Shown here piece after piece: positions 10,907 through 30,203 of a DNA stretch of 64,000 nucleotides. The DNA comes from an uncultured SAR116 cluster alpha proteobacterium (lineage in GTDB: Bacteria; Pseudomonadota; Alphaproteobacteria; Puniceispirillales; Puniceispirillaceae): the NCBI GenBank assembly GCA_902622515.1, contig CACNQE010000001.1:62001-126000 (forward strand), written 5' to 3'. The notes under the pieces were generated by a model. The model worked only from the letters and a program-made list of their open reading frames with translations. It was not told the DNA's origin and did no database searches. Every line of letters begins with the position of its first letter. Within the stretch, counting starts at the first letter, position 1. The position numbers were made by a program, and so were the translations under genes.

Positions 10907-11010
10907 TTTTTTTGTACAAATAAAAAAAATAATTAGTTTTTTTATTTTTTTTCTGATAAAACATGATCGATTTTTAACTTTTTTCTTTTGCAAATTTTGA
11001 TGGTTTTCTG

Positions 11011-11649
11011 ATGACTTTAACTAATAATATAACTCATTCTCATGATAATAAATTTATTTTGAAAGAATCGATTGAAGAGAAATTATATCAAATTATTCGT
11101 TCCGAGATTCGTAAAGGAGATTTGAAGCAAGGAACAATTTTAGTTCAAGGAACCTTGGCTGATAAATACGGGGTAAGCAGAATACCAGTAAGAAGCGCTC
11201 TTCAGTTATTAGAAAAAGATGGATTAATTCATAAAATCAACAATAAAGGTTCTTTTGTTGTCACTGAATATAATCGTGATGAAATATCAGAAATGATAGA
11301 GTTGAGTAATTTAATAGAACTGAAGATAGTATCCAACTCATTCACTAAATTCACAGATTTTGGAATAAAGCAATTAACTGCTCTTAACCAAAAAATTAAA
11401 AATTGTTCTATGGAAAATTATAGAGATCTTAACCACGAATTTCATTTAGTCCTATTTTCATATTCAGATAAAGGACTATTCAGAAAATTTGCCGTTGATT
11501 TAAGAGAGACAAGGCCAATGTATATGTCGATCAAATCTTATGCAGATATCAGAAAAGCATATGAAGAGCACCAAGAAATGATAGAAGCAATTAAAAAAGG
11601 TAAACGTGAAATTTTTATCGCACTTTATGAAAAGCATATTCACTGGTAA
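11011..11649 (+). CDS. GntR family transcriptional regulator (FCD subfamily)
   Basis: A DNA-binding regulator of the FadR/FCD branch. Residues about 20-87 form the winged helix-turn-helix (ADKYGVSRIPVRSAL recognition region, then the KGSFVV wing). The C-terminal all-helical FCD ligand domain contains NHEFH, EHQEMIEAI and a final HIHW, matching the His-rich metal site of the subfamily. The protein stops two residues after the last conserved His, so it is slightly short. FCD regulators commonly sense small carboxylates and repress neighbouring catabolic genes. Position at the edge of the island and shared palindromes make it the likely regulator of that island. Confidence 0.88.
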   Translation: MTLTNNITHSHDNKFILKESIEEKLYQIIRSEIRKGDLKQGTILVQGTLADKYGVSRIPVRSALQLLEKDGLIHKINNKGSFVVTEYNRDEISEMIELSNLIELKIVSNSFTKFTDFGIKQLTALNQKIKNCSMENYRDLNHEFHLVLFSYSDKGLFRKFAVDLRETRPMYMSIKSYADIRKAYEEHQEMIEAIKKGKREIFIALYEKHIHW

Positions 11650-11843
11650 AGAACAGCAACAAGTTATCATTTATATAATTTGAAATTTATTATTATAACT
11701 TGCAAAAAAATATGTTTAGCTTTTAAAGTTGGCCTTACGTTGTGTTTGCGTATTGTATTAATCCACGTCCGTGGTAAGATTTTAATTCAGAAAAAAATGA
11801 CCAGAAGAGGAAGATATCATCTGACATGATATGTTATTTGTAA

Positions 11844-13058
11844 ATGATAACCACCAACAATAATATGCTGCTTTTTGAAGAAACATCCTTAGCTAATTTA
11901 ACTATTAAAAATAAGATTTTTAGAGCGGCTACTTCAGAAACAGCTGCGAATGAAAACGGAGATATTACGGAGAACCTGATTGATTTCTACAGGAAACTGG
12001 CAAAAGGCGGTACAGGGCTTATTTTCACCGGGCATATGTATGTTGAAAAAGAAGGTCAATACGCCCCCTATCAAGTCGGCCTTACAGAGCATAACAATTT
12101 AAATAGACTAAGAGATTTAGTATCAGCAGTACATGAATTTAATGTGCCAATTATCGCAGAATTATCTCATTGTGGCAGTCAAACAATGATGAGCGATGTT
12201 AATACAAAAGCCCCATCTGTGTTGCCAAATCTTATATACGGCAATCAACCTTTTGAATTGTCCGAAAAAGAGATAGCTCAACTTATAAATAAATTTAAAA
12301 AATCAGCCTCAATAGCTATGCTTGCAGGTTTTGATGGCATTCATATTCATGGTGGGAACGGGTATTTAATTTCTCAATTTAGCTCTCCAATTACTAATAG
12401 AAGAAAGGATAGATGGGGCGGAACAAGCGATAACAGGAACCGTTTTTTTTTAGAGATTTATAAAGCAATTAGAAAAGAGATTGGTCCAAATAAATTTATT
12501 TCAGCAAGAGTTGGCATCAAGGATGTTCAACCAAATGGACTATCAAAAAATGAAGGAGTAGATAGGGTTAAAATATTGCAAAATCTGGGCATAAATGCGG
12601 TTGAGCCAACCTTCAATCTAATGAACACCTATAGAGATAACATTAAGCCATTCGCTGGCAATAGTCGATTGAAATCCTTTTTAAGCGGAACTTTCATATT
12701 TGATAAGCTTAAAATTCAGAACCACCAAGAAGGTTATTATTTAACTCTATGCGATGAACTTCGCCTTAACGGAGTCACAATTCCAAAAATATTGGTTGGT
12801 GGTGTAAGGACTTTGACTTTTATGGAACAAGTATTGCTAGAAAAGCGAGCTGATTTTTTTGCTTTATCTAGACCATTTATAAGAGAGCCAAATCTTGTTG
12901 AAAAAATTAAATTACAAAAAACTAATCAAGTAGCTTGTGTCTCCTGCAACATGTGCTTTAAACATGAAGGATATCATCAAACTCAATGTTGGAGAACAAA
13001 TATATCAAGTATAATCAGACATTTACTATTTAGTTTAAGACATAGTTTGAACAATTAA
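11844..13058 (+). CDS. NADH:flavin oxidoreductase, old yellow enzyme family
   Basis: A TIM-barrel FMN oxidoreductase. The N-terminal KNKIFRAATSE block, the flavin/substrate motif HIHGGNGYLISQF near residues 166-178, the following RRKDRWGG, and VGGVRT near residue 320 identify the OYE/2,4-dienoyl-CoA reductase-like barrel. It has a C-terminal Cys cluster (CVSCNMC, then a further Cys) that could hold an iron-sulfur centre as in dienoyl-CoA reductase. The NAD(P)-binding C-terminal domains of that enzyme are absent, so electrons must come directly from NAD(P)H or a partner. Role in the island: reduction of an activated C=C bond is plausible. Confidence 0.85.
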   Translation: MITTNNNMLLFEETSLANLTIKNKIFRAATSETAANENGDITENLIDFYRKLAKGGTGLIFTGHMYVEKEGQYAPYQVGLTEHNNLNRLRDLVSAVHEFNVPIIAELSHCGSQTMMSDVNTKAPSVLPNLIYGNQPFELSEKEIAQLINKFKKSASIAMLAGFDGIHIHGGNGYLISQFSSPITNRRKDRWGGTSDNRNRFFLEIYKAIRKEIGPNKFISARVGIKDVQPNGLSKNEGVDRVKILQNLGINAVEPTFNLMNTYRDNIKPFAGNSRLKSFLSGTFIFDKLKIQNHQEGYYLTLCDELRLNGVTIPKILVGGVRTLTFMEQVLLEKRADFFALSRPFIREPNLVEKIKLQKTNQVACVSCNMCFKHEGYHQTQCWRTNISSIIRHLLFSLRHSLNN

Positions 13059-13075
13059 AATAGTAACTTAAACAA

Positions 13076-13966
13076 ATGGGTCGATTCAAACATTCTACAA
13101 ACGTTGGCTTTACATTAGCTGCTGCAGGCGCAATCATTCTTAGTTTAGAAGTCATTTTTCTTCGTTCTTTGAGTGATATAAATGGTTTTCAAATTATGTT
13201 ATATCGCTCTGTTTCAGTTTCTTTTGTATTCTTAAGCTTCATTCTTTTATTTACTAACCAAAAAACAAATGTGAATTCCCTTAAGTTTAATTTTAAGGAA
13301 ATTCTTTCTGGATTTTTTTTATCTATGTCTTTTTTTTGTTATGTATTTTCTATTTTAAATTCAAGTGTGGCATCCAGCCTATTGATTTTATCCATATCTC
13401 CGGTTGTCTCAGCTATATTAAGTAAGATATTCTTAAATGAAAATTTACCAAAATCCTTATTCGTGATTCTTGTTTCATTGGTAATTGGTTTATTTATTAT
13501 TTTTGAAAATTCGGTGAATGACAGCCAGCTTTTAGGAAACTCGATTGCATTTTTTGGAGCATTTTTTTTTGCTGCATCTGTAGTTACTTCGAGGGCCATT
13601 GGCTCAAATAGTATAGCTTTTGGTGGCTTTTTAGCGGGTGTTTTTGCATTTTGTTCAGCATTGTTGTGCTTGTTTGTTTTGGATTTATCAATTTTTATTC
13701 ATTTAAAAGATATCGCTCTTATTTGTATAATGGGAATTTTCACTACAGGATTAGGAATGCTTCTATTACTTTTAAGTACGAAATACCTTGAGGGTCCATA
13801 TGTAAGTCTCATAGCGCTATTAGAAGTAGTCCTAGCACCAGTTTGGACATTGCTATTTTTTTCAGAAGTTATAGTAATACAAGAAGTTTTTGGAGGTATT
13901 TTAATTTTAACATCAATTTGTATATTTCTAATGAATACCAAACTAAATTTTAAAAATTTGAATTAA
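13076..13966 (+). CDS. EamA/DMT family transporter
   Basis: A third DMT-superfamily protein in 6 kb, 296 residues, about ten membrane helices in two EamA repeats. The second repeat carries the LEGPYVSLIALLEVVLAPVW block. It follows the OYE gene by 17 bases on the same strand, so it is probably in that operon. In a catabolic context it could export an intermediate or import a substrate; the sequence does not tell. Confidence 0.86.
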   Translation: MGRFKHSTNVGFTLAAAGAIILSLEVIFLRSLSDINGFQIMLYRSVSVSFVFLSFILLFTNQKTNVNSLKFNFKEILSGFFLSMSFFCYVFSILNSSVASSLLILSISPVVSAILSKIFLNENLPKSLFVILVSLVIGLFIIFENSVNDSQLLGNSIAFFGAFFFAASVVTSRAIGSNSIAFGGFLAGVFAFCSALLCLFVLDLSIFIHLKDIALICIMGIFTTGLGMLLLLLSTKYLEGPYVSLIALLEVVLAPVWTLLFFSEVIVIQEVFGGILILTSICIFLMNTKLNFKNLN

Positions 13967-13978
13967 ATAATAAGTTAT

Positions 13979-14007
13979 TTGACAAATCTAAATTTGAGTA
14001 TTTTAAT
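13979..14007 (+). promoter_or_regulatory. Candidate sigma-70 promoter of the RidA gene
   Basis: TTGACA at 13979-13984, a 17-base spacer, and TTTAAT at 14002-14007 form a near-consensus promoter. The predicted start of transcription near 14014 falls at the edge of the palindrome described next, the usual place for a repressor site. Confidence 0.5.
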
Positions 14008-14013
14008 AATTAT

Positions 14014-14027
14014 ACTGTATACAATAT
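14014..14027. promoter_or_regulatory. Candidate GntR operator before the RidA gene
   Basis: ACTGTATACAATAT contains the palindromic core TGTATACA (14016-14023). GTATACAATAT is shared exactly with the site at 27187. It lies between the proposed promoter and the ATG at 14047. GntR-FCD sites commonly have a central GTATAC-like symmetry. Binding itself is inferred. Confidence 0.5.
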
Positions 14028-14046
14028 TCAAAACGAAGGCTAGATC

Positions 14047-15330
14047 ATGAAAATTGAACGTTCTGAAATATCTGATTTTTTACCTGCACCAAAAATTACC
14101 AAAGTTGGTGATTACCTTTACACATCTACGATTTACCCAATGAACTCAGATGAGGGTGTTATATTGTCTAATCCCAAAATGGGGCAAATGGGTTCTTCTG
14201 ATATCGAATTACAAACAGAATTGTGCTTTGATATATTAAATGAATATCTTGGTAAATTTGGTAGTGATTTTAATAAACTTATAAAAGTGGAAGTATGTCT
14301 AGCTAGTGAAGAGGATTTTTTTGAATTTAAAAGTGTATGGAAAGCTAGACTTGGTGATAAACTTCCCGCAAGAACTACATTAGTCGTTGGAGATAATTTT
14401 CCAATGCCTGGTTGTAAAATCAGTATTGATGCAATAGCGCTTGATGGTTCGTCAAACTTAAATTTAGAATATTTAAACGATCCAGAAAGTGATGCAAATA
14501 TGGCGGCAGAATGTGCTCCCCATGCGGTCCGAGCCGGTGATTTTGTGTTCTGCTCAGCTTTCACTGCGTCTGATTTTGTTAACGGTATCGCTGTTGGCAA
14601 ACCGCCTGGTTTTCCAAATTATGGAAATAATGCCCAAATGCAGATGGAATACATATGTCAAAGACTGAATAGGGTTTTAGCCCAGGTTGGTACTTCACTT
14701 GAAAACTGCGTTGATAGCCAATTATATGAAACTGATTTACTTAATTTTCACGCTGTTGACGGAGTAACTGCGTCTTACATGGGTGTATGCCCACCTAGGA
14801 GTTCAATGGGTGTTAACAGCTTAGTTGTGCCTGGCGCACTTTGCGCTCCTAATCTCACTGTATTAATACCCAACGAAAAATTAAACAAAGAACAATCGTT
14901 TGATGGCTTAAGATGGCATCCAGTATCAGTACGGGGAGTAAATTTTTCTCCAACCATGGTTGTCGGCGATTGGAGGTTTTTTGCTGGCCAAATACCTACA
15001 AATGATTTTAAATCATACGAGGGTGTGTCAGACGGTATGAAATTAACGTTGTCCGAAATCGAGCAACAAACTAACTTCACCATGGAATTACTAACTGAGC
15101 AGTTAGAAGCAAATAATACAGACTGGGAAAATTGCTTTCAGGTCAGAATGTATTTAATAGAGCCCAGACGTGATTTTAGGATTTTCAAAAGAGCATGGAA
15201 AAAACTATTTCCTGACGCGAGTAAAGCACCAGCTCTTGTCTATATACCCTCTGTACAAGAAAATGGTAAAACCGGAATTATGTTTGATGGCCCGTTAATT
15301 GAAATAGACCCAACTTGCATTGCTAAGTAA
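14047..15330 (+). CDS. Three-domain RidA (YjgF/Rid) family protein
   Basis: The 427-residue protein reads as three tandem Rid-fold domains, at about residues 1-137, 138-285 and 286-427. Classic Rid proteins are single domains of about 130 residues that hydrolyse reactive imines/enamines, with an essential Arg near the trimer-interface active site. That Arg is present in domain 1 (PART, Arg109) and domain 2 (PPRS, Arg251). The matching segment of domain 3 reads SKAPALVYI, so the Arg is lost. Aminomuconate deaminases belong to this superfamily, which fits a role in ring catabolism. The gene stands alone with its own promoter and palindrome. Function beyond the superfamily is unknown. Confidence 0.8.
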   Translation: MKIERSEISDFLPAPKITKVGDYLYTSTIYPMNSDEGVILSNPKMGQMGSSDIELQTELCFDILNEYLGKFGSDFNKLIKVEVCLASEEDFFEFKSVWKARLGDKLPARTTLVVGDNFPMPGCKISIDAIALDGSSNLNLEYLNDPESDANMAAECAPHAVRAGDFVFCSAFTASDFVNGIAVGKPPGFPNYGNNAQMQMEYICQRLNRVLAQVGTSLENCVDSQLYETDLLNFHAVDGVTASYMGVCPPRSSMGVNSLVVPGALCAPNLTVLIPNEKLNKEQSFDGLRWHPVSVRGVNFSPTMVVGDWRFFAGQIPTNDFKSYEGVSDGMKLTLSEIEQQTNFTMELLTEQLEANNTDWENCFQVRMYLIEPRRDFRIFKRAWKKLFPDASKAPALVYIPSVQENGKTGIMFDGPLIEIDPTCIAK

Positions 15331-15379
15331 CTTACTCGGTTTTAATATTATTTACTGAATAGTATTGAGGTATTTATTG

Positions 15380-15401
15380 TTAAGCTTTAATTATAGCTTA
15401 A
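15380..15401. terminator. Weak hairpin between convergent genes
   Basis: TTAAGCT at 15380-15386 pairs with AGCTTAA at 15395-15401 across an eight-base loop, followed on the plus strand by a T-run at 15415-15420. It sits between the convergent RidA and Rieske genes. The stem is short and AT-rich, so this is a weak call. Confidence 0.3.
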
Positions 15402-15425
15402 ATTAATAAAAGTGTTTTTTATTGA

Positions 15426-16451
15426 TCAGCAGTTAGTTACGAATAATTTGTCTGCATCAACAGGCCCGTCAATTAGTTTTTCTGCTTTATCGGTAAATAA
15501 CTTCCTATAATGTATAGATGCCGCATCTGGAACTGCAACATTAACTTCTGCTCGAATTTGTAGCGGAATATTCTCAGGTTTTTGTTCCTCTACGATCTCC
15601 CTATCCTGTTCCATAATCTCATCAAACCCGCCGGTGAAGTTCGTATCAGGTTCTTCTATTTTATAATTTCTCGCCATAAACACGAAAATTTTTGATAAAT
15701 TTGCATCAATAGGTGAAGCAATAAAAGTTAAGATTGTTGTATCTCCTTCCTTACTGTCACCTCTCTCAGACCATGTTTTATGCTCGTTACTAGTGTTGAT
15801 TACCTGCTTGCTATCATGGACGGTAAATGGAAAATCTATTCTGTATTTTCGTAATAATTTTGAGTCGTAGTATTCATAATTTATTTGATCACCATTTGTT
15901 TTTACATCATGTTCTTTTATTAATGGACCGTCTGCTAATTCGGTAAAACCTTTATGTACAAAGTTAAAATGAGAGAAGTCAATAGCATTCTCAGCTATCC
16001 TGCCAGCACTTGACTCCCACACATATGAATTAACCAAAAACACCTTATATTTTGGATCATTCCAGGCATCTGAAGGCCATGTTGGAAATGCCTCCGGTTT
16101 TTCACTTAGATTTACCCAGATAAGACCAAATGAAATTTTTGCCTTATATTTGTGAATACACCATGTAGGCGGTATTTTTTTTGAGGCGTCCATGGACGGA
16201 ATAGAGATACAATTTCCTTCTCTATCAAATTTCCAGCCATGATATGGGCACTGAATGGATCCACTATCGTCTATTACTCCACCTGATAATTTAGCGCCTC
16301 TATGTATACATAAGTCTTTAAAAACAACCGGTTCGTTCATATGCATATATATAACTAAACGTTCACCTAAAAGCGTAATTGGCAACGGGACATTAGAAAT
16401 TTTGGATGCCTCCTCTACTGGGTGCCAGTAATTGACTAATATATCTCTCAT
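15426..16451 (-). CDS. Rieske non-heme iron oxygenase, alpha-type subunit
   Basis: An aromatic-ring-hydroxylating or O/N-demethylating oxygenase. The Rieske [2Fe-2S] site is intact: CIHRGA then CPYHGW (Cys-X-His, 17 residues, Cys-X2-His). The mononuclear iron site is seen as NAIDFSHFNFVH, with Asp and two His. The 341-residue length and the PASIH-like tail resemble the vanillate demethylase/PobA group rather than two-subunit dioxygenases. It needs a reductase that is not encoded beside it. It begins two bases after livG and so ends the livH-livM-livG operon. That links it directly to the imported compound. Substrate unknown. Confidence 0.88.
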   Translation of the reverse strand: MRDILVNYWHPVEEASKISNVPLPITLLGERLVIYMHMNEPVVFKDLCIHRGAKLSGGVIDDSGSIQCPYHGWKFDREGNCISIPSMDASKKIPPTWCIHKYKAKISFGLIWVNLSEKPEAFPTWPSDAWNDPKYKVFLVNSYVWESSAGRIAENAIDFSHFNFVHKGFTELADGPLIKEHDVKTNGDQINYEYYDSKLLRKYRIDFPFTVHDSKQVINTSNEHKTWSERGDSKEGDTTILTFIASPIDANLSKIFVFMARNYKIEEPDTNFTGGFDEIMEQDREIVEEQKPENIPLQIRAEVNVAVPDAASIHYRKLFTDKAEKLIDGPVDADKLFVTNC

Positions 16452-16453
16452 AA

Positions 16454-17191
16454 TTACTTACCTATATAAGTCTCAATAACTAATTCATTGTTTATAATTT
16501 CTTCTGGATTACCCTGTGCTATTAATTTTCCATCATTCATTACGTAAATAAAATCTGATATATCACATATGAAACGCAGATTGTGATCTACAATTAAAAA
16601 AGTAATCCCTTCTCCGTTCAGTTCTTTGATTATTTCCATAAGCTGTTCTAATAAAGCCGGGTTTACTCCAGCTGCTGGCTCATCTAATAACATTATTTGC
16701 GGATTTCCCATAATTGCGCGAGCAAACTCAAGAATCTTTAGCTCTGGTGCACTTAAATCAATAACCCACTGATTTTTCTTTTCAAAAAGACCAAATTTTT
16801 TTAGTAACTCTTCTGCCTTATCAATCTGCTCCTTGTTCTCTTCACTCTTATTCAAGAAGTTTTTATAAAAATCGAAATTATTGTTATCTGAAAAGACCAG
16901 AAGATTTTCTAGAACTGTTAATCTGGGGAACCCAGTAGCGGTTTGAAATGTTCTAATCATTCCTAACTTAGCAATTTTTGAAGGAAGAAGGTTAGAAATT
17001 TCCTGACCTTCAAAGTTCACGCTGCCACGATCTAATTTGTCAAACCCACTAATAACATTAAATAGTGTAGTCTTACCTGCTCCGTTAGTACCAATTAGCC
17101 CAATAATTTTTCCTTCTCCCACCTCTAAAGACACATTTTCAACTGCCTTTACACCGCCATAAAATTTATCAACATTTGTCACCGTGAGCAT
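16454..17191 (-). CDS. livG: Branched-chain-type ABC transporter ATP-binding protein (LivG-like)
   Basis: This cytoplasmic ATPase is one of two energising a LivHM-type importer. Walker A is GTNGAGKTT near residues 35-43. The ABC signature is degenerate, with LSAPELKILEFARA where LSGGQ is expected. Walker B is IMLLDEPAAG, followed by the VDH switch histidine. The LivG group is indicated by the C-terminal block with IAQGNPEEI. The gene sits between livM and the Rieske oxygenase gene. Its partner ATPase LivF is encoded in the divergent unit at 20507. Confidence 0.9.
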   Translation of the reverse strand: MLTVTNVDKFYGGVKAVENVSLEVGEGKIIGLIGTNGAGKTTLFNVISGFDKLDRGSVNFEGQEISNLLPSKIAKLGMIRTFQTATGFPRLTVLENLLVFSDNNNFDFYKNFLNKSEENKEQIDKAEELLKKFGLFEKKNQWVIDLSAPELKILEFARAIMGNPQIMLLDEPAAGVNPALLEQLMEIIKELNGEGITFLIVDHNLRFICDISDFIYVMNDGKLIAQGNPEEIINNELVIETYIGK

Positions 17192-17222
17192 CTTAAAACT
17201 TTCTGTTATATCTATGTTTTAA

Positions 17223-18155
17223 TTACCTAATTATTGTAGGTTTTTCTCTAAGCAGTCCGTTGGGTAAATATCTTAATATTAGTATTAACGCCAAACCAAC
17301 TAACGCGATCCTTAATGAACTTACTACCAAGGCAAGCTCTGCAGATAAATTCAAAAAACTGAGGGTTTCAAGCAAGATTACAAAAAATATAGCGCCCAAG
17401 AAAGCGCCTCTATTATTTCCTATTCCCCCTATTATGAGAGCGGTCCATACAAAAAAAGTTACATTTGGAGTAAATTGTGTTGGTACAATCAACGTATTCA
17501 ACCACACATATAAAGCTCCAGACAATCCAGCAAGACAACCCGTGAACACATAGACACTGTGGTATTGTTTACCCGGTTCAATTCTTGCTGTTTTAGCTAG
17601 TGCTTCGTTTTCCCTAAGAGCCTTCAAACTTAATCCATAATTTGAAAAAGAGAGTCTATTTACCATCCTATACACAATTAGAGAAATACATAGAAAGATT
17701 ACAAATAATAAAATGAGATAATTATCTGGTGTAAAAAATGATTTAAGAGGTTGTTTTATATTATATATACCAGCAACCCCGTTCGTTAGCCAATTTTCAT
17801 TTGAAAAGGTTATTCTAAGCACCTCTGAAAATGCAATCGTTGTTATTAAAAAATATTCCCGCCTTAATCTTAAGGAAGGAAGACCAATCAAATAAGCACT
17901 TACTCCACCTAGAACAATGGCTAAAGCTATTCCGTATATAGGATTTGATTCAAATCCAAACAAATAATGCTGATAGGACGCGGCCTCTGGCGCCACAATT
18001 ATTGCGTAAGAATAGGCTCCAACGCCAAAATAGGACACAATCCCAAGGTCCCACATACCTGCAACACCACACTCGATATTTAAAGCCAGACACAAGATTA
18101 CATAAACAAATGCAAGTGTCAGAATACTAATTGAGAATATTAAGAAGCCCTCCAT
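17223..18155 (-). CDS. livM: Branched-chain-type ABC transporter permease (LivM-like)
   Basis: An inner-membrane permease of the HAAT family with about eight to ten helices. Typical LivM features are LCLALNIECGVAGMWDLGIVS-like N-terminal region and the ALRENEALAKTARI cytoplasmic loop that contacts the ATPase. The VWTALIIGGIGNNRGAFLGA block follows. It begins two bases after the livH stop. Members import amino acids, amides, urea or aromatic acids; the operon partner (a Rieske oxygenase) favours a catabolic substrate over leucine. Confidence 0.9.
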   Translation of the reverse strand: MEGFLIFSISILTLAFVYVILCLALNIECGVAGMWDLGIVSYFGVGAYSYAIIVAPEAASYQHYLFGFESNPIYGIALAIVLGGVSAYLIGLPSLRLRREYFLITTIAFSEVLRITFSNENWLTNGVAGIYNIKQPLKSFFTPDNYLILLFVIFLCISLIVYRMVNRLSFSNYGLSLKALRENEALAKTARIEPGKQYHSVYVFTGCLAGLSGALYVWLNTLIVPTQFTPNVTFFVWTALIIGGIGNNRGAFLGAIFFVILLETLSFLNLSAELALVVSSLRIALVGLALILILRYLPNGLLREKPTIIR

Positions 18156-18157
18156 TA

Positions 18158-19024
18158 TTATGTCTCCCTCCCCTTACTTTGCCACAATGATTGAAGCCCT
18201 TCTGGTCTAATAACTAAGACCAGGATAATCACTCCAAACGCAATTGCGGTTCTATAATTGGACGAAACAAATAAAAGACCAAACTCCATCGCAAAACCTA
18301 AAAGCAATCCAGCTAACATTACTCCATATATACTGCCAAGCCCCCCAAGGACTGTCACTGATAATATCATTACAATCTGTTGCCAGCCCATATTAAGATG
18401 TACAGCTCCTAGAATACCAAGAAAAATACCTCCCAATCCTGCTAAAGACGATGCGATAAACCAAACTAAATCTGAGCATCTGTCGGGATTGATACCTCTT
18501 ATTTTGGCTAAATCTTGATTATCTGCTACCGCTCTAATATGTTTCCCCATGATTGTGTACTGTAAAAAGATATGAAGAAATATCACAGTGGCAAGAACAA
18601 TACCGAGGATCATGAATTCGTATGGAGTCACAAGGTAAATATCACCAACTTTCACCACCCTAGATATAGGAATATCAAAAGATAACATGCGTTTACCAGC
18701 AATAGCTCCTACTATACCATTAATCAAATATGCTAAACCAACTGATGTAAAGAGCTGTACTAATATTCCATTGGACTTTATGGGCTTAAATAAAATTCTT
18801 TGAAAAGCGAGCCCAGTTAAACCACATAAAAGCACGCTCAAAATGGCGGCGATAATAAAAGGTAATCCAATAAAGGTCAATCCGAGCGTGAAATATGCGC
18901 CAAGCATTAACATTTGACCATGGGCTACATTAATAAATCCCTCTGTTTTCAACGTCATCGAAAAACCTAGCGCGCATATTAACAAAATGCTTCCCGTTAC
19001 CAATCCGTATATAAATATATCCAT
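18158..19024 (-). CDS. livH: Branched-chain-type ABC transporter permease (LivH-like)
   Basis: The second permease subunit of the importer. It opens with the LivH pattern (YGLVTGSILLICALGFSMT, then GFINVAHGQMLMLGAY). The ATPase-contact loop AVADNQDLAKIRGI lies in the middle and GGLGSIYGVMLAGLLLG near the end. At 288 residues it has normal length. It is the first gene of the livHMG-Rieske operon; its ATG is about 53 bases from the palindrome at 19077. Confidence 0.91.
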   Translation of the reverse strand: MDIFIYGLVTGSILLICALGFSMTLKTEGFINVAHGQMLMLGAYFTLGLTFIGLPFIIAAILSVLLCGLTGLAFQRILFKPIKSNGILVQLFTSVGLAYLINGIVGAIAGKRMLSFDIPISRVVKVGDIYLVTPYEFMILGIVLATVIFLHIFLQYTIMGKHIRAVADNQDLAKIRGINPDRCSDLVWFIASSLAGLGGIFLGILGAVHLNMGWQQIVMILSVTVLGGLGSIYGVMLAGLLLGFAMEFGLLFVSSNYRTAIAFGVIILVLVIRPEGLQSLWQSKGRET

Positions 19025-19074
19025 TTGATGCTCTAATTGTTAAAATTTACAATTTTTCTTTCTTTATTCATTTG

Positions 19075-19090
19075 TTTGTATACAGTATAT
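19075..19090. promoter_or_regulatory. Candidate GntR operator between divergent livH and livJ
   Basis: The sequence TTTGTATACAGTATAT contains the palindrome TGTATACA at 19077-19084. On the minus strand it reads ATACTGTATACAAA, matching the site before the RidA gene over ACTGTATACAA. Its place in the 150-base divergent spacer could let one protein control both units. Confidence 0.5.
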
Positions 19091-19197
19091 TAAAATAGTA
19101 ATGTTTTTGTTTAGCAAGTCAAAAATAAAAATAAGAAGATAGAAAATAAACATTTTAAATTGAGTAAATTTATTAAATGGAGGGAAAATTGGAGAAA

Positions 19198-20430: not shown

Positions 20431-20450
20431 AAATAATTTTAAAATAATAT

Positions 20451-20480
20451 GAGTAACGCAAATTTACCATTGCGTTACTC
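20451..20480 (+). terminator. 11-bp hairpin between binding protein and LivF genes
   Basis: GAGTAACGCAA (20451-20461) pairs perfectly with TTGCGTTACTC (20470-20480) around an eight-base loop, followed by TATCTTTT. The T-run is weak. It may act as a leaky terminator or as a 3' stabiliser that keeps binding-protein mRNA in excess over the ATPase, a known arrangement in binding-protein operons. Confidence 0.6.
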
Positions 20481-20506
20481 TATCTTTTCAATACTAAACG
20501 AGGTTC

Positions 20507-23496: not shown

Positions 23497-23978
23497 TTGT
23501 TTTGCTCTATAGCTACTTGTTTTACTGATTTAATTATATTTTGATATCCAGTACATCTGCATATATTTGAAGACAGAACATCTTTAACTATTTCTTCGGA
23601 TAGTTCATTATAATTTTCGAGCATCCACTTAGTTAAAATTAAAAAACCTGGTGTACAAAAACCACATTGAAGGCCGTGATTTTCCCAAAAAGAGTTCTGA
23701 ATATCATTAAGTTTGTCATTTGAAGCTAGACCCTCTACAGTCTCTATCTTTTTACCATTCGCCTGAACAGCTAAGTAAAGACAACCTCGCACTGGCAAAT
23801 TATCAACCAATATAGTACAGGCCCCACAAACACCATGTTCACATCCTAGATGTGTGCCAGTAAGCGAACATTTATCTCTAATTGCGTCAGCAAGATGAGT
23901 ACTTGGTCTAACAGAAATGTTAAATTTTTTTTCATTTACAAAAAATTCTATATCTTGCTCACTATTGCCTTTGCTCAT
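23484..23978 (-). CDS. Molybdenum hydroxylase small subunit, [2Fe-2S] protein
   Basis: The iron-sulfur electron-transfer subunit (CoxS/XdhA-N-like). The N-terminal plant-ferredoxin-type cluster is GCEHGVCGAC plus a later Cys (RGCLY). The C-terminal four-helix cluster is QCGFC with CRCTGYQ. The 164-residue length is standard. It sits between the two large-subunit genes, overlapping both (17 bases with the upstream, 13 with the downstream). A single small subunit may therefore serve both large subunits. Confidence 0.94.
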   Translation of the reverse strand: MSKGNSEQDIEFFVNEKKFNISVRPSTHLADAIRDKCSLTGTHLGCEHGVCGACTILVDNLPVRGCLYLAVQANGKKIETVEGLASNDKLNDIQNSFWENHGLQCGFCTPGFLILTKWMLENYNELSEEIVKDVLSSNICRCTGYQNIIKSVKQVAIEQNKWVE

Positions 23979-26271
23979 GTCTCCTCAACACCTCTCTAAT
24001 ATCATTTGGATGGACGGGAAAAAAATCAATCTCCTCTCCATACTGCTCTAGTGCATTATTGATTGCACTCAATATAGCGCCCGGCGCACCTATAAGTCCT
24101 CCCTCACCTAATCCTTTAGCACCAGTCTCAGAATATTCGGTAATTGTTTCTAAATGTTTTATTTGTATCTTTGGCGCCTCATGCATAGTAGGAATCTTGA
24201 AATCTGCAAAATTTGTTGTCAGAATCGTTCCGTTTTTGTCATATTTTATTTCTTCATACAGAGCGTTACCTATACCTTGGATTACTCCACCAACTATCTG
24301 CCCATCAACTATTTTTGGATTAATTAATTTTCCAGCATCCTCAATTACAAAATATTTTTCGACTGATACGTTTCCTGTAAGGGTATCTATTTTGATTTTG
24401 GCGATGTGGCATGCATTCGAAAATGTGCCAATAGGGTCGTAAGAGCTCGATACACGAAGTTCACTTCCAGCTATATCCTTAACTTCGTGATTAGAATGAT
24501 AGACTTTTCGCCCAATTGTTTTTAAAGATAGATTAGAGTTTGTTTTCTTATTTACGGCATATCCGCCTTCTAACTCCAAGTCATCTATATCACATTGTAA
24601 GTAGAAAGAGGCAATCTCTTTAATCTTAATAGAAAGTTTTTGAGCTGATATCTGACAGGCGCCTCCCGATATAACAACAGACCTACTTGCAAATGTCCCC
24701 CATCCATAGGGTGTATTGTCAGTATCACCCTGCACTATATTTATATTTTCAACGTTAATTCCGAGAGTGTCAGCTATTATCTGAGACAATGTAGTAGCTA
24801 TTCCTTGTCCGTGAGAACATATGCCAACTCTGGCAGTAATGTTACCGGAGGGATCCATGCTAAGTTCGCAATTCTCAAATCCTGGTGTTATTTGCATTCC
24901 TCTGGCTGCAAATGCGCTTGTCCCGTATCCGGTTCTTTCACCGAAAACGGAAAGGCCAATACCTGTTAATTCATTAACCCTTACTTTAGTATTGTTTTTT
25001 AAAATTTTGTTTTCCTGAAGAATAATATCTTTGGCATATAAAAGCGTTTCAGAATAAGAACCCTCGTCAATAACTAAGTTTGTTGGTGTTTTGTAGGGAA
25101 ATTTTTTTATCAAATTTATATTTCGAATCTCAATTCTATCGATTCCTAAAATTTTTGAGGCTTTATCCATAAGCCTTTCTAAAACAGCCGTTATAACTGG
25201 TCTTGAGACACCTCGGTAAGGAGCCATCATACATGTGTTGGTTAATACTCCCAATGCCTCTGATGAATAGGCAGATATATCATAGGGCCCAGTGTATTCT
25301 GCGAGTGCCATCAACGGTTCTACGCCGGCCGTTACAGGATAATTTGAGTAAGCGCCCACATTAGCTTTGATATAAGTTTTTAAAGCAAGCAGTCTTCCTG
25401 TTTTATCAAAGGAAGCTTTAACATTATGAATTTGGTCTCTACTATGCGCTGATGAAGCAAAGTTTTCTTGGCGATCTTCAATCCAATGAAAATCTCTTTT
25501 TTTATGCAGTGCTAGCCAACAGAGTAAAACATACTCCGGAAATAATGCCATCTTCTGACCAAACGCTCCGCCAACATTTAATGCTATCACTCTTAATTTA
25601 CTTTCAGATATCTTAAGACAATCACAAATCCCCGTTCTCAACATATGTGGCATCTGAGCAGAGACATATAATTCTATTCTATCTGTAGACCTATTAAATT
25701 TTACAGCACAACCCCTTGTCTCAAGGGGTGAAGCATTTTGTCTTTTTGATTTAAACTGGATCTCAACTTTACAATCGCTATTATCAAATTTGTAATCAAA
25801 ATTATCTGTCTCAAACTTTCCGTGAACAACAATATTATCTTTAATATGCTCGTGCACTATCGGGGCATCAGATTTTAAGGCATCATTAATTTCATAAACA
25901 CCTTGTTCAATTTCAAATTCAAAGAACGGAAAATCCTGTTTCAATTCATTTCTTGGGTCGGTATTATAAATAGCACCAATGGCTTGACCTACGTATTTTA
26001 TATCTTTAGATGGAAGAATAGGCTGATTAATAGGAATAAAATTAAATTTATCTAACTTACAGGATATGTGATTTATATCAGCTAATTCGTGACCGGTGAT
26101 TAACTCTACACTCTGTTTTCTGTTTATTTTTTTTATTTTGCCTTTGGCTATAGGGCTTCTAATAAACTGTACTTCTGTTGACGCGTCACACATATCCGCG
26201 ACAAATTTTGCCCGTCCTGTCAACAAAGAAGGATCTTCTTTCCGTTTCTGAGAAATCCCAATCACACCCAT
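23962..26271 (-). CDS. Molybdenum hydroxylase large subunit, xanthine dehydrogenase family (first copy)
   Basis: A second molybdopterin-binding subunit, 769 residues, clearly different from the 21214 copy. It starts GVIGISQKRKEDPSLLTGRA. The active-site loop reads APYRGVSRP, close to the AYRGAGR of form II enzymes. The catalytic Glu is kept in GAKGLGEGG (Glu723). It lies directly after the FAD subunit gene with one base between. Two complete large subunits in one operon are unusual; they could act on successive intermediates or form a mixed assembly. Maturation genes for the cofactor are not in this window. Confidence 0.9.
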   Translation of the reverse strand: MGVIGISQKRKEDPSLLTGRAKFVADMCDASTEVQFIRSPIAKGKIKKINRKQSVELITGHELADINHISCKLDKFNFIPINQPILPSKDIKYVGQAIGAIYNTDPRNELKQDFPFFEFEIEQGVYEINDALKSDAPIVHEHIKDNIVVHGKFETDNFDYKFDNSDCKVEIQFKSKRQNASPLETRGCAVKFNRSTDRIELYVSAQMPHMLRTGICDCLKISESKLRVIALNVGGAFGQKMALFPEYVLLCWLALHKKRDFHWIEDRQENFASSAHSRDQIHNVKASFDKTGRLLALKTYIKANVGAYSNYPVTAGVEPLMALAEYTGPYDISAYSSEALGVLTNTCMMAPYRGVSRPVITAVLERLMDKASKILGIDRIEIRNINLIKKFPYKTPTNLVIDEGSYSETLLYAKDIILQENKILKNNTKVRVNELTGIGLSVFGERTGYGTSAFAARGMQITPGFENCELSMDPSGNITARVGICSHGQGIATTLSQIIADTLGINVENINIVQGDTDNTPYGWGTFASRSVVISGGACQISAQKLSIKIKEIASFYLQCDIDDLELEGGYAVNKKTNSNLSLKTIGRKVYHSNHEVKDIAGSELRVSSSYDPIGTFSNACHIAKIKIDTLTGNVSVEKYFVIEDAGKLINPKIVDGQIVGGVIQGIGNALYEEIKYDKNGTILTTNFADFKIPTMHEAPKIQIKHLETITEYSETGAKGLGEGGLIGAPGAILSAINNALEQYGEEIDFFPVHPNDIREVLRRHEQRQ

Positions 26272-26272
26272 T

Positions 26273-27124
26273 TTATGAGCACGCTAGTAATGAACGATAA
26301 GTTACAGCTTTTACTATATCTCGTTTATATTCCTCAGAAGAATCTATGTCTGGTAAAATTGAGATATTTTCAGAAGCTATTATGGCAGCCTCCCAAGATG
26401 TTTCCTCCGAAAGACGTTTGCCTTTCAAAAAATTTTTAGCTTTTTCTGCAATTATCGGGGTCTCGGTAGCCGCACCAATTACAATATTTCCATCTACAAC
26501 TTTTTCACCCTTCATATCTAATTTTGATACACACATCGCAATTGCATAATCTCCAGCCCGCCTTGCATACTCGTTAAAACCTAACTTGGTATGCTTATTA
26601 ATCTCTGGAAATTTTATAGATACCAAAATCTCATCAAAACCTATATTTGTTAAATAAGGAGCAATAAAAAATTCCTTACTATCCACAATTCTCTTCTGCC
26701 TGTCCTGTCCAATCACTTCAACGGAACCATCTAACGCTAACAAACAAGAACACCATTCAGAAGCTGGATCAGAATTAGCTACTGCTCCACAAAAAGTTCC
26801 CTTAGATCTTATTGGAGTATGAGCTATGTTTTTAGAGACCTCTTTTAAAAAAGATATCAACTTTGAAGAACTTTTACTAAACTCAATCTCGCTATGCGTT
26901 ACAAGTGCGCCAATGTGAACCTCGTTTGAGGTAGCTTCGAAAATATTAAGACCGTCTATCTCTCCTATGTCTATAATAGTCTCGGGCTGTGCCAACTTCA
27001 TATTCATAGCAGCAACAAGACTTTGTCCTCCAGCTATTATTCTAGGCTCCTCGTTAGCAGCTAGGTAAGCTAGAGCTTCATCTAAACTTTTAGGTTTCAA
27101 ATAGAGAAAGTTACTTGCTTTCAA
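26273..27124 (-). CDS. Molybdenum hydroxylase medium subunit, FAD-binding
   Basis: The FAD subunit (CoxM-like) passes electrons from the iron-sulfur subunit to the final acceptor. The FAD motif AGGQSLVAAMNMKLA lies near residues 32-46. The second FAD motif, usually TIGGN, appears as TFCGAVANSDPASEW. The start is a TTG at 27124 preceded by GGAAAA; it is chosen because family members begin MK.. with exactly this spacing to the SLDEAL helix. First gene of the operon, about 62 bases from the palindrome at 27186. Confidence 0.9.
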   Translation of the reverse strand: MKASNFLYLKPKSLDEALAYLAANEEPRIIAGGQSLVAAMNMKLAQPETIIDIGEIDGLNIFEATSNEVHIGALVTHSEIEFSKSSSKLISFLKEVSKNIAHTPIRSKGTFCGAVANSDPASEWCSCLLALDGSVEVIGQDRQKRIVDSKEFFIAPYLTNIGFDEILVSIKFPEINKHTKLGFNEYARRAGDYAIAMCVSKLDMKGEKVVDGNIVIGAATETPIIAEKAKNFLKGKRLSEETSWEAAIIASENISILPDIDSSEEYKRDIVKAVTYRSLLACS

Positions 27125-27183
27125 AACATTTTCCAGGACATAAAACTCTTTGAATTCATTTGATCATAGTAATGTAATATGTT

Positions 27184-27199
27184 TCAGTATACAATATAC
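27184..27199. promoter_or_regulatory. Candidate GntR operator between divergent Mo-hydroxylase and cupin operons
   Basis: TTCAGTATACAATATA contains GTATACAATAT, identical over 11 bases to the site before the RidA gene. It lies in the 163-base divergent spacer. A lone ATTGTAT half-site occurs further along the spacer near 27250. Regulation by the island's GntR protein is inferred. Confidence 0.5.
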
Positions 27200-27287
27200 A
27201 AAATAGTACAAATATGATGTTATTTTTTATTCAAAAAACCGGTTATCTCAATTGTATTTTGCAAGGAACTTAGATTGGTAATATTAT

Positions 27288-27656
27288 ATGGAACCTATAC
27301 AAATCATAAATTCAGACGAAATCAGCCCTATAACCCAAAAAAATAAAAAGATTTCTCTCACTCCAATTCTCACACCAAAGGATGGGGCAAAGTGGAGAAC
27401 ATCACTCAAAATTCAACTGGATAAAAATCAAAAAACAAATCCATTATCTTTATCCTCTGAGTGTGTTTTTTTTGTTATGCAGGGGAAAGGTATAATTTTT
27501 GATGAAACAGCAAATAAAAAAGACAATATTTACAAAGATAAAATGGTATTTATAACGCCCGAAACTTTGTTTAGTTTCATTACTTTAGAAGATGAACTAA
27601 CCTTGCTCGGTGGCCCCTGTCCGTTTGATGAAAATATTTTAAGTATTGGTGATTAA
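27288..27656 (+). CDS. Cupin-like protein without obvious metal ligands
   Basis: A 122-residue protein with cupin-like spacing: a FFVMQGKGIIFDE strand pair and KMVFITPETLFSF corresponding to the two cupin motifs. The His and Glu metal ligands usual in these motifs are missing, so it may be a non-catalytic or regulatory partner. It is followed after one base by a second, complete cupin gene, and the pair may form a heteromer. Weak ribosome-binding site (GGTA). Family call is moderate; function unknown. Confidence 0.6.
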   Translation: MEPIQIINSDEISPITQKNKKISLTPILTPKDGAKWRTSLKIQLDKNQKTNPLSLSSECVFFVMQGKGIIFDETANKKDNIYKDKMVFITPETLFSFITLEDELTLLGGPCPFDENILSIGD

Positions 27657-27657
27657 A

Positions 27658-28050
27658 ATGGCGATAAAAATTTTTGATATTGATAATCCAGGTCTTAGAT
27701 TACCCATAATTTCAAGTGATGCCCGCTTTATAGTTTGGCTTGGAGAAGACTCGGAGACTGCAAATATGAACTATGTAGTCTTAGAACCTGGTGAAGAGAA
27801 CATCCCCCATATACATAAGGAGTCTGAAGATACAATTTTTATATTAGAAGGTAAAGGTAGTATAAAAAATCATGATACAGGAGAAGTTCACCAATTCCGT
27901 AAGAATGACCTTATTCATGTGCCTATTGGAATCAAACATGCTGTTAGAGCTGATGCTGGTGAGAAAATCATAAGTGTGGGAGGCCCTTCACCTGCTGACA
28001 GGCATCTTTTAAAAAATGTTGGGAAGTTACCTAAGAAGTATGATTTTTAA
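27658..28050 (+). CDS. Cupin domain protein
   Basis: A small cupin of 130 residues. Motif 1 reads PHIHKESEDTIFILEGKG (two His and a Glu as candidate metal ligands) and motif 2 reads HVPIGIKHAV. The ATG at 27658 is preferred to an in-frame TTG at 27646 because GGTGA stands five bases upstream and cupins begin at this point. Cupins of this size include small dioxygenases, isomerases and binding proteins. Its place between a partner cupin and a cyclase-family hydrolase suggests a step on the island's substrate. Confidence 0.83.
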   Translation: MAIKIFDIDNPGLRLPIISSDARFIVWLGEDSETANMNYVVLEPGEENIPHIHKESEDTIFILEGKGSIKNHDTGEVHQFRKNDLIHVPIGIKHAVRADAGEKIISVGGPSPADRHLLKNVGKLPKKYDF

Positions 28051-28063
28051 TAAGGAGATATAA

Positions 28064-28903
28064 ATGAAAGTATATGATTTGACACATAAAATGAACATAC
28101 ACACCCCAGGTTGGGTTGGGTATGCAGGGAATAAAATGTTTTATGCAGCTAACCTCCAAACAAAGACAATTGTAACGCAGAGAATTGATATTGCTCTTCA
28201 TTCTGGGACCCATATAGATGGAGCGATGCATGGTACTGATGGAATGGGAGACATGGCCTCTTATTCACTCGATTTTTTGATGGGACCTGGCGCAGTGGTG
28301 GACATTTCAAAGCATTGCGACGACTGGTCTGTTATTACTCCTAAAATGATAGAGGATTCACCCGTTGACGTGAAAGAAGGAGACATCCTTATTTTAAACA
28401 CCGGCTTCCATAAATATTGGGAAGGTCAAGAAAATCAAGATTTAGTTCGATATTTTTGCATGCATCCAGGGGGGAATATTGAATTATTAGAATGGATGCT
28501 TGACAAAAAAATTAAATGGTTTGGTATCGATTGTGGTTCTGGAGACCACTCGATGAATACATCTATTAGAAACATGCGTCCAGATTTGGCAAAGAAATTT
28601 GAAAAGCAAATTGGCATGTCTTGTGAAGAGTTTTTTGGCGATTTTTCATATAAACACGCTAAGTCTGGAAGAGAGATAACCGATGATATATTTCCTTTTC
28701 ATACTTACGCATTTGATAGAGGTTTAACTCACGCTGAAAATATAGGTGGTGATATTGAATTAGCCTCAAATAAAAGAGGCTTAATTGGAGCCTTTCCATG
28801 GAGATATGAAGGTCTAGAGGCGTGCCCTTGTAGGATTTTATTATTTGAAGATTATGATGGACCTCTAGATTTTATTGGAGATTTTGCGAACGCTAAAAAT
28901 TAA
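28064..28903 (+). CDS. Cyclase family protein (metal-dependent hydrolase, kynurenine formamidase-like fold)
   Basis: Member of the cyclase/KynB family of metal-dependent hydrolases. The signature HSGTHIDGAMHG near residues 46-57 gives the HxGTHxD metal site. Family members hydrolyse N-formylkynurenine, isatin, or cyclic amides. The DILILNTGFHKYW and WFGIDCGSGDHS segments fit the fold. Length 279 residues, longer than typical KynB (about 210) but normal for other branches. A good AAGGAGATAT ribosome-binding site precedes the start. In the island it is a candidate ring-opening or amide-cleaving enzyme, upstream of an amidase. Confidence 0.87.
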   Translation: MKVYDLTHKMNIHTPGWVGYAGNKMFYAANLQTKTIVTQRIDIALHSGTHIDGAMHGTDGMGDMASYSLDFLMGPGAVVDISKHCDDWSVITPKMIEDSPVDVKEGDILILNTGFHKYWEGQENQDLVRYFCMHPGGNIELLEWMLDKKIKWFGIDCGSGDHSMNTSIRNMRPDLAKKFEKQIGMSCEEFFGDFSYKHAKSGREITDDIFPFHTYAFDRGLTHAENIGGDIELASNKRGLIGAFPWRYEGLEACPCRILLFEDYDGPLDFIGDFANAKN

Positions 28904-28932
28904 AATTTTTTTCAAGAAATATTTTAAATTAA

Positions 28933-30099
28933 ATGCCAAGTAATATTTTTGTAGAATGTAATGTAAATTTTAACGAATTTCCAACGAAGTCTGGTATTTT
29001 AGATAATTACACTTTTTCTATAAAAGATTTGTTTGATCTAAAAGGTCACGTAAAGAGCAATGGTCACAAAGGTAGCTTAGCTAAATTTGAACCCTGTAAT
29101 AAAACTAGTCCTGTAATAACTTCACTTTTAAATGAAGGAGCAAAACTAATTGGAGTTACTAACTGCGATGAATTTTTTTATAGTCTTACGGGTATCGAAA
29201 GTTCGTTTCAACAGCCTAAAAATTGGATAAACGAAAAGTTAGTTCCTGGTGGTTCATCATCAGGAGCTGCATCTTCAGTGGGTTACGACTTAGTTGATTT
29301 TGCGTTAGGAAGTGACACCGGCGGCTCAATTAGAGTACCAGCCTCCTTTTGCAGCATGTTTGGGATTCGACCAACACATGGAAGAATTCCAACCAACGGT
29401 GTGACAGCTTTAGCACCTTCCCTTGATACACTTGGATGGTTAACAAAAAAACCAGAACTACTGGCAAAGGTAGGAAAAATTCTTTTGAAAAACTATTGCT
29501 CTAAAAATAATAAAATTAAAAGATTCATTGTAGTAGACGATTTATTTAAACATTGTACTAAAGAAATTTACACTGCTTCAAGAAAGTGGATTAAAAGTTT
29601 GGAAAGCTATGGTAATATACAGGTAAAATCCTTCTCTAAAATTAACTTTGAGAGTGCTATTATGGATTTTCAAATAATACAGGGCTGGGAAGCCAAAAAA
29701 GGTATTGTAAAATTTATAAAAAATAATGACCTTAAATTAAGAAAAAATATTCAAGAGAGAATAAATTTTGCCGATAGCATAACTGAAACTGACTATAAAA
29801 GATCAGCCAAAAACAGAAATATATTTAAACAAAGCATTGACTCCTTAATAGAAGATGATTGCGTGGCAATCTTTCCCACTACACCTATGCCCGCTTTAAA
29901 TAAAGGTAAAATAAATCAAGAATTGACACTATTCCGAAAAAAAATTCATAATTTTACTTGTATTGCAGGTTTAACAGGAAGGCCTCAAATTTCGTTGCCT
30001 TTTTCCTTGTCACTTCCTCTACCTTTTGGAATTTCAATTTTAGGTGGGTTGAACAGGGATGAACAAATAATATCACTAATAGAAGAAATCTATCTGTAA
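28933..30099 (+). CDS. Amidase signature family protein
   Basis: An amidase-signature hydrolase. The Ser-cisSer-Lys triad region is visible: catalytic Lys in SIKDLFDLKG, the Gly/Ser-rich GGSSSGAASSVG, and the nucleophile region GSDTGGSIRVPAS. At 388 residues it is shorter than GatA (about 480). It lacks GatA's tRNA-related context, so it is a free-standing small-amide hydrolase rather than a GatCAB subunit. It ends the cupin-cupin-cyclase-amidase operon and could release ammonia from the ring nitrogen. Specific substrate unknown. Confidence 0.88.
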   Translation: MPSNIFVECNVNFNEFPTKSGILDNYTFSIKDLFDLKGHVKSNGHKGSLAKFEPCNKTSPVITSLLNEGAKLIGVTNCDEFFYSLTGIESSFQQPKNWINEKLVPGGSSSGAASSVGYDLVDFALGSDTGGSIRVPASFCSMFGIRPTHGRIPTNGVTALAPSLDTLGWLTKKPELLAKVGKILLKNYCSKNNKIKRFIVVDDLFKHCTKEIYTASRKWIKSLESYGNIQVKSFSKINFESAIMDFQIIQGWEAKKGIVKFIKNNDLKLRKNIQERINFADSITETDYKRSAKNRNIFKQSIDSLIEDDCVAIFPTTPMPALNKGKINQELTLFRKKIHNFTCIAGLTGRPQISLPFSLSLPLPFGISILGGLNRDEQIISLIEEIYL

Positions 30100-30203
30100 T
30101 GTTAAACATCAGCTTAATAAGCTATTATCTCCATCAAATTATTTTTATTAAAAATATATTTACTTTTTAAAAATTTTTTTTAAAATAATCTCAAGTATTT
30201 AAC

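Follow-up and report, generated by a model that had tools for sequence, protein, structure and literature searches.

A SAR116 gene cassette with a two-headed molybdenum hydroxylase and its candidate role in breakdown of a nitrogen-containing ring

On which compound do the enzymes of a 19-kb gene run act that lies at 11011-30099 of a 64,000-nucleotide stretch (here called the window) of a SAR116 alphaproteobacterial genome (2.1 Mb, completeness 95%)? An earlier note, made from the sequence alone, had proposed a pathway for a nitrogen-containing ring compound and had listed a Liv-type importer, a two-headed molybdenum (Mo) hydroxylase operon, a Rieske oxygenase, a triple RidA protein, an old yellow enzyme (OYE), two cupins, a cyclase-type hydrolase and an amidase; gene calls and family scans found all of these parts. 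The answer that we favor, at a probability of about 0.5, is a two-step azine model, that is, import and hydrolytic breakdown of a pyridine-type ring, possibly N-methylated. The proposal of a nitrogen-ring pathway is well supported by comparison: the solved structures nearest to the two Mo heads and to the Rieske oxygenase are those of enzymes that act on N-heterocycles. N-methylated pyridines, which the note had suggested, are possible substrates.

The pointer to an azine is the pair of Mo-hydroxylase heads. The Mo operon (21214-27124, minus strand) encodes two large subunits, one small subunit and one flavin adenine dinucleotide (FAD) subunit: MoL2 (21214..23496), the KdhC-like second catalytic subunit; MoS (23484..23978), the small iron-sulphur subunit, 48-49% identical to NdhB and KdhB of the pAO1 nicotine route; MoL1 (23962..26271), the Qor/NdhC-like first catalytic subunit; and MoM (26273..27124), the FAD subunit, with 34% identity to NdhA and 32% to KdhA. 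Family scans, best matches and a tree were used to assign the two large subunits. The best solved structure for MoL1 is quinoline 2-oxidoreductase (400 bits; runner-up 337), and among pAO1 proteins MoL1 scores 427 bits with NdhC and 283 with KdhC. For MoL2 the best solved structure is 6-hydroxypseudooxynicotine dehydrogenase (528 bits; runner-up 334), with 486 bits for KdhC and 365 for NdhC. The pAO1 enzymes NDH (nicotine dehydrogenase) and KDH hydroxylate the two positions flanking the pyridine nitrogen. Since MoL1 is nearest to Qor/NdhC and MoL2 to 6-hydroxypseudooxynicotine dehydrogenase/KdhC, the pair thus parallels the two successive hydroxylation steps on the ring in nicotine degradation. 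The enzymes that the two heads match act on ring carbons adjacent to nitrogen by hydroxylation, a reaction class that we infer for the heads from homology; a sharing of MoS and MoM by both heads is proposed.

A quick maximum-likelihood tree of 73 rows, with Shimodaira-Hasegawa-like approximate likelihood ratio (SH-aLRT) support only and with the MoL1 and MoL2 labels preset by operon place and best match, placed 21 MoL1 rows in one clade (support 100) and 27 MoL2 rows in another (98-99). The long-branched KdhC of pAO1 is the sister of a group made up of the MoL2 clade and one plasmid row (98); the placement of NdhC, unresolved beside MoL1, is unreliable, one long branch joining another. Pairwise distances of MoL1 correlate with those of MoL2 (r=0.97), cup2 (0.90) and the cyclase (0.81), and none of 1000 shuffles gave values as high; shared species history by itself also inflates such correlations.

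Could the operon instead encode an aerobic CO dehydrogenase (form II) or an aldehyde dehydrogenase with accessory genes? NCBIfam models of CO dehydrogenase and glyceraldehyde dehydrogenase do top that library's scores, but all such scores lie far under the curated cut-offs (334 and 372 bits versus 991 for the CO dehydrogenase model). KdhC is placed beside the MoL2 clade, and the loops PYRGVSR of MoL1 and TYRSPGR of MoL2 are unlike what we take to be the form I CO dehydrogenase motif. We consider this possibility highly improbable. The NCBIfam scan covered 13 island proteins and put none of them above any curated cut-off listed (Pfam alone was used for the Liv permeases, the ATPases and the drug/metabolite transporter (DMT) genes), which agrees with the earlier statement that no classic nicotinate, uric acid or phenylacetate gene set fits.

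Two further observations concern Mo hydroxylases at large. The source genome holds at least seven long Mo-hydroxylase large-subunit matches (nine matches), yet no PF00970 domain was found in it. A related MoL group occurs together with DUF1116 genes on Caballeronia (L143) and Pacificitalea (L017) plasmids, the Caballeronia plasmid also carrying SRPBCC, HpxZ and amidase genes; this group perhaps belongs to a separate ring-ureide pathway.

The pointers to N-methylation are the relatives of the Rieske oxygenase (15426..16451, minus strand; PF00355 and PF19112) and, in Rhodococcus ruber and Klebsiella, formaldehyde or formate genes close to related clusters. The best solved relatives are the methylxanthine N-demethylases NdmA (130 bits) and NdmB (123), and SxtDIOX and SxtT (120), the next match scoring 58. 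Because these are Ndm and Sxt enzymes, the protein may act as an N-demethylase or as a ring-carbon hydroxylase, both being possible, and an N-methylated substrate is plausible.

The candidate hydrolases lie at the right end of the run. The cyclase-family protein (28064..28903, plus strand; PF04199), 95-97% identical in congeners, is a putative ring opener, and it is followed by an amidase-signature amidase (28933..30099, plus strand; PF01425; 62-76% in congeners), whose stop codon at 30099 ends the reported run; the reaction classes of both are assigned by homology. Isatin hydrolase and kynurenine formamidase are among the metal-dependent hydrolases that the predicted fold of the cyclase resembles. 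The model is weak near the active site (mean predicted local distance difference test score, pLDDT, 69.5; below 50 at residues 10-48 and 53-65), and the fold match alone was used. We dropped the idea that the cyclase is one of the known family of cyclic imide hydrolases, as the imidase HxnM belongs to a different family.

Upstream, the Liv-type importer of the earlier note proved complete, at 16454-21217. LivG (16454..17191; ATPase, PF00005), LivM (17223..18155) and LivH (18158..19024; both permeases, PF02653) are on the minus strand, and LivK (19177..20430; substrate-binding protein, PF13458) and LivF (20507..21217; ATPase, PF00005) on the plus strand. LivG is 78-94%, LivH 91-98% and LivK 91-96% identical in congeners.

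The roles of the OYE, the cupins and the triple RidA protein are speculative. The OYE-type flavoenzyme (11844..13058, plus strand; PF00724; 60-70% in congeners) has the HGGNGYL site and a C-x2-C-x2-C-x10-C motif; the His/Asn pair and the four cysteines are retained in all seven aligned rows, and the cysteine motif is presumably of the iron-sulphur type of related flavoenzymes. Two cupins had been claimed and both are there, one of them recognizable by alignment only. This protein, cup1 (27288..27656, plus strand), is degenerate: neither Pfam nor NCBIfam gives a match at E 0.001, the HxH..E..H ligands are missing by reading, and only alignments, with the N-terminal half of a fused bicupin and with split cupins beside cup2 in other taxa, reveal it as a cupin. 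The metal-binding cup2 (27646..28050, plus strand; PF07883; 89-92% in congeners) retains HxH..E..H in 14 of 15 aligned rows, Pantoea having Asp for Glu. The triple RidA protein (14047..15330, plus strand) is one chain with three PF01042 (L-PSP) stretches, and R251 in domain 2 is the sole invariant Arg in six rows, one of them a fragment that lacks the end of domain 3. Its model (three-sequence alignment; pLDDT 72, predicted template modeling score, pTM, 0.81) aligns as a single chain over all three domains with chorismatase (TM-score up to 0.48) and with cyclic amide hydrolase (0.36). These alignments span 390-417 columns at about 10% identity, and single RidA and RutC domains match as well. 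The protein is possibly a further instance of the chorismatase/cyclic amide hydrolase fold derived from RidA.

In the azine model, the Liv ATP-binding cassette (ABC) importer would take up the ring compound. MoL1 would add oxygen at the first carbon beside the ring nitrogen, through the MoS/MoM pair serving both heads, and MoL2 would do so at the second such carbon, which would yield a 2,6-dioxo azine (cyclic imide tautomer). The Rieske oxygenase would strip an N-methyl group or hydroxylate a ring carbon, the cyclase would hydrolyze a ring C-N bond, and the amidase would release the remaining nitrogen as ammonia. The OYE and the triple RidA protein may reduce and deaminate unsaturated or enamine intermediates, passing carbon and nitrogen on to central metabolism. 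The substrate and the reaction order are speculative. A more specific version is doubtful as a whole: an N-methylated azine, such as a trigonelline-type pyridinium, would undergo two successive ring hydroxylations by interchangeable heads that have their electron-transfer subunits in common, then Rieske N-demethylation and hydrolytic C-N opening, with a RidA pseudo-trimer contributing its own ring-intermediate chemistry, in a widespread, undescribed cassette route of marine and plant- or soil-associated bacteria.

Do these genes belong together? Alignment of the congener G102 to the window (92% over 1-6226, 69-72% over 6309-8507) breaks off at 8507 and restarts at 30201 (86%), with about 300 bases intervening. 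In G104 the island occupies the same site as in the window. Among 136 genomes of the order the cyclase was found in three and the triple RidA protein in three, and these are the same three, the window's included; in the two congeners, G101 and G104, the island is collinear. The empty site in G102, the co-occurrence and the collinearity together define a unit of ~21.7 kb (~8510..30200, edges approximate, no strand assigned) that is gained or lost as a whole within SAR116. It includes two further EamA/DMT transporter genes on the minus strand, at 8881..9810 (72-74% in G101/G104) and 9866..10795 (53-65% in congeners), both PF00892. The run drawn earlier holds the listed parts; the cassette begins further left and takes in these two genes (8881-10795), and a third EamA/DMT gene had been omitted from the run (13076..13966, plus strand; PF00892; 51-64% in congeners). 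A GntR/FCD regulator (11011..11649, plus strand; PF00392, PF07729; 58-66%) opens the run. Identity between congeners is far lower for this regulator, the OYE and the amidase than for the cyclase, LivH, LivK and cup2.

Some neighbors fall outside the unit. The ABC transporter after the island, presumably of the Thi type, shows only generic binding-protein and permease domains in Pfam; a link to thiamine was rejected, since G102 has the transporter but not the island, as does G100 on one short contig, and the transporter is thus a neighbor and not a part. A Xan_ur_permease gene at 34802 is also outside, its start and upstream stretch being 82% conserved in G102. Within the G104 island lies an extra inner module comprising a second triple RidA gene, a BMP-type ABC transporter and an isochorismatase gene (L013:16521-19774, L014:3287-6846). 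The isochorismatase of this module is 79% identical to the copy in an Acidimicrobiia genome (L067), which suggests transfer between phyla. That genome carries the cyclase, a fused bicupin, a Rieske oxygenase and a nitrilase together with a G104-type module, the BMP protein being 59% and the triple RidA protein 54% identical.

Beyond SAR116, the core proved wider than the full cassette. Our even class sample comprised 385 genomes, searched at E <=1e-90 for the cyclase and E <=1e-180 for MoL1, for which a maximum of two candidates were scored per genome. The cyclase was found in three and MoL1 in five (the window's included), and all three cyclase genomes are within the five. As a search marker, the triple RidA protein retrieved only SAR116 genomes (three of 136 genomes of the order, one of 385 in the class sample). 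A four-gene Mo operon is present in all five MoL1 genomes, with the order MoM-MoL1-MoS-MoL2 also in the four others, and cup1-cup2 diverge from MoM as in the window in three of those four (four of five with the window). The cupins are followed by the cyclase in G160. In G388 the contig stops 0.7 kb past cup2, in G291 the 1.06 kb of contig past the cupins hold no cyclase, and in G195 the cyclase adjoins MoM, with the cupins absent between them. The core, MoL2-MoS-MoL1-MoM divergent from cup1-cup2 and often then the cyclase, thus recurs in other Alphaproteobacteria, and some of these loci also carry the same Liv importer, Rieske oxygenase and OYE.

A second scan, of named genomes and based on cyclase alignment, found 136 relatives, and the top 80 were retained; two SAR116 loci were set aside and the other 78 examined, of which 42 reach 20 kb or more. 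Queries added for nitrilase, carboxymuconolactone decarboxylase, reductase and SRPBCC each also match their own source locus, and the co-occurrence thresholds were fixed after the matches were known. At least three of 12 scored partner genes were found in the fetched DNA of 20 loci; the counts were 25 for MoL2, 21 for cup2, 14 for nitrilase, seven for Rieske, six for LivK and three for OYE. Control stretches of 20 kb from six genomes that we chose from the same set contained, at these thresholds, none of 19 cluster genes in any of 20 cases. Many of the remaining loci were without the set in the fetched DNA; a large share of these are Xanthobacteraceae (cyclase 62-68% identical), and three are Bradyrhizobium (72-73%). 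Since many cyclase loci thus lack the partners, the cyclase is also employed elsewhere, outside the cluster. Eleven extended loci, selected for having cluster genes, contained MoL1, MoL2, MoS and MoM in every case, cup2 in ten, Rieske in six, the Liv set (by LivK) in five and OYE in four; in the five, LivG was 53-54% and LivK 50-54% identical. Bauldia litoralis has in one run the Mo operon, cupins, nitrilase, SRPBCC, LivHMGKF, a Rieske gene with reductase and the cyclase, along with a carboxymuconolactone-decarboxylase-like protein, an OYE, a BMP-type transporter and an isochorismatase; no triple RidA match was found there at threshold. The neighborhood search proposed earlier thus finds the order kept in two congeners and the core recurring in other families, and the parts are not scattered and independent: the SAR116 cassette is gained or lost as a unit and the core stays together in other orders. 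Co-inheritance, gene content and the homology of the parts are in this sense observed.

These patterns bear on the idea of a detoxification or salvage cassette, in which independent enzymes acting on unrelated electrophilic or aromatic compounds would be clustered through a common regulator and importer. Genes for OYE, RidA, DMT transporters and amidases often serve in detoxification at large, and OYE, Rieske and RidA are absent from many relatives of the core, as such a cassette would have it. The conserved Mo operon order (5/5) and divergent cupins (4/5) in the class-sample MoL1 genomes, the correlated distances of MoL1, MoL2, cup2 and the cyclase, and the whole Liv importer accompanying the core in five of the 11 extended loci argue against it, and we hold it to be improbable.

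Plasmids carry related gene sets. The Rhodococcus ruber conjugative plasmid pmega_2 (L016, L020) has a cyclase (62% identical) and a cupin (56%), two Rieske plus VanB pairs, and nitrilase, formate dehydrogenase, DUF1116 and malate synthase genes; it perhaps encodes a related pathway ending in glyoxylate. A DMT - nitrilase - DMT - isochorismatase run is annotated on plasmids of Pantoea sp. At-9b (L101), near split cupins and Rieske genes, and of Klebsiella pneumoniae (L102), near formaldehyde-detoxification genes.

Several findings weigh against the azine reading. The large subunits are only 28-36% identical to the pAO1 proteins. The cyclase matches the pAO1 cyclase at 25% over 137 residues (E 6e-4), with no blastp match at 1e-4; with so weak a direct match, the two share little beyond the Pfam family. 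DhpH, the omega-amidase, the pAO1 SRPBCC protein and the pAO1 cupin have no island match at E 1e-3. Fewer than three of the 12 partners were present in 58 of the 78 cyclase loci, many of them short, the three Bradyrhizobium loci had no Mo operon or cupins in the fetched DNA, and the outer genes (Rieske, LivK, OYE) are looser than the core. Although NdmA and NdmB are the nearest solved relatives of the Rieske oxygenase, a dedicated VanB/NdmD-type reductase was not found in the 95%-complete genome (a search with no positive control), and neither was a PF00970 domain (controls positive in eight of 14 genomes); the oxygenase is therefore without a known electron donor. That the OYE serves as donor is a guess. 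Finally, related clusters hold isochorismatase, BMP-transporter, HpxZ/AtzH-like and DUF1116 genes, which fit a purine, pyrimidine or hydantoin substrate equally well.

The N-methylated substrate would then have a purine, pyrimidine or hydantoin-like ring, as in methylxanthine, methylguanine or a creatinine-derived compound. The Mo heads would act on purine or imidazole carbons, the Rieske oxygenase would N-demethylate, and the cyclase and amidase (isochorismatase in relatives) would cleave cyclic ureides. Consistent with this are the NdmA/NdmB match of the Rieske oxygenase, the BMP binding protein of related clusters, which among solved structures matches the atrazine-binding protein and tmpC best, at about the same level, weak matches of the related-cluster isochorismatase that include N-carbamoylsarcosine amidohydrolase, RutB and biuret hydrolase, a Pantoea HpxZ-like protein slightly below its cut-off, and the DUF1116, formate dehydrogenase and malate synthase genes of Rhodococcus ruber. 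The heads, however, match quinoline and 6-hydroxypseudooxynicotine enzymes best, with no xanthine dehydrogenase among their solved-structure matches at E 1e-60. The Mo subunits do not reach the NCBIfam curated cut-offs for xanthine dehydrogenase, those models scoring far under them, and the window's island has no match to an isochorismatase or a BMP binding protein. We regard a purine or ureide substrate as unlikely.

The azine model finds its closest counterpart in the nicotine route of pAO1, where NDH and KDH are placed in the pathway by a figure legend of PMC6214936. Alike are the combination, in the island, of NdhC-like and KdhC-like heads with a PF04199 cyclase and an amide hydrolase, and the presence of SRPBCC and nitrilase genes in its relatives; the pAO1 record has the order kdhC, Dabb gene, cyclase-family gene, dhpH, SRPBCC gene and carbon-nitrogen hydrolase. 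The pAO1 cyclase ('PKC'), of PF04199, is proposed in PMC6214936 to hydrolyze the N1-C6 bond of 2,3,6-trihydroxypyridine. Unlike pAO1, the island has a single operon for both heads, with one MoS and one MoM, and it has a Rieske oxygenase, OYE, cup1/cup2, triple RidA and Liv importer in place of the rest of the pAO1 set. The nitrilase-type omega-amidase is replaced by the amidase-signature amidase, the DHPON hydrolase of pAO1 has no match in the island, and a relative of the DHPH-type FAD hydroxylase (30%) occurs only in the Pantoea cluster. The 2-hydroxypyridine pathway of Rhodococcus rhodochrous PY11 (HpoH, HpoI), likened by description only and second-hand through PMC6214936, has a similar logic of ring opener and amidase.

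Two other systems resemble the island in part. The fungal nicotinate pathway hxn of Aspergillus nidulans, as described in PMC9304392, combines a Mo hydroxylase, an alkene reductase of the OYE type that has a His/Asn site, C-N opening of the ring and an amidase. Its imidase HxnM is PgdA/PuuE-related according to that source, whereas the island's ring-opening candidate is of the non-homologous PF04199, and nothing among the annotated genes of the island corresponds to the monooxygenases HxnX and HxnV. In Sphingomonas melonis TY, PMC5239795 describes ndrB1B2B3B4 as a four-gene Mo set required for nicotine use; the ndrB3 and ndrB4 products resemble the nicotine hydroxylase large subunit, and heterologous expression gave no activity. 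The likeness to the island, both being four-gene Mo sets, is one of description and not of sequence.

No description of the cluster was found in text searches of open-license papers. Individually the enzyme families are known ones; their combination and the cassette behavior appear new. Trigonelline and homarine are abundant nitrogen heterocycle metabolites of phytoplankton, and to our knowledge ring breakdown by marine oligotrophs is poorly worked out. The genes of the island form a defined set, relatives of which occur in named isolates (Bauldia litoralis, Methylobacterium, Chelatococcus, Bradyrhizobium), and its substrate should therefore be findable through ordinary genetics; the two-headed Mo hydroxylase and the single-chain triple RidA protein would be useful enzymology.

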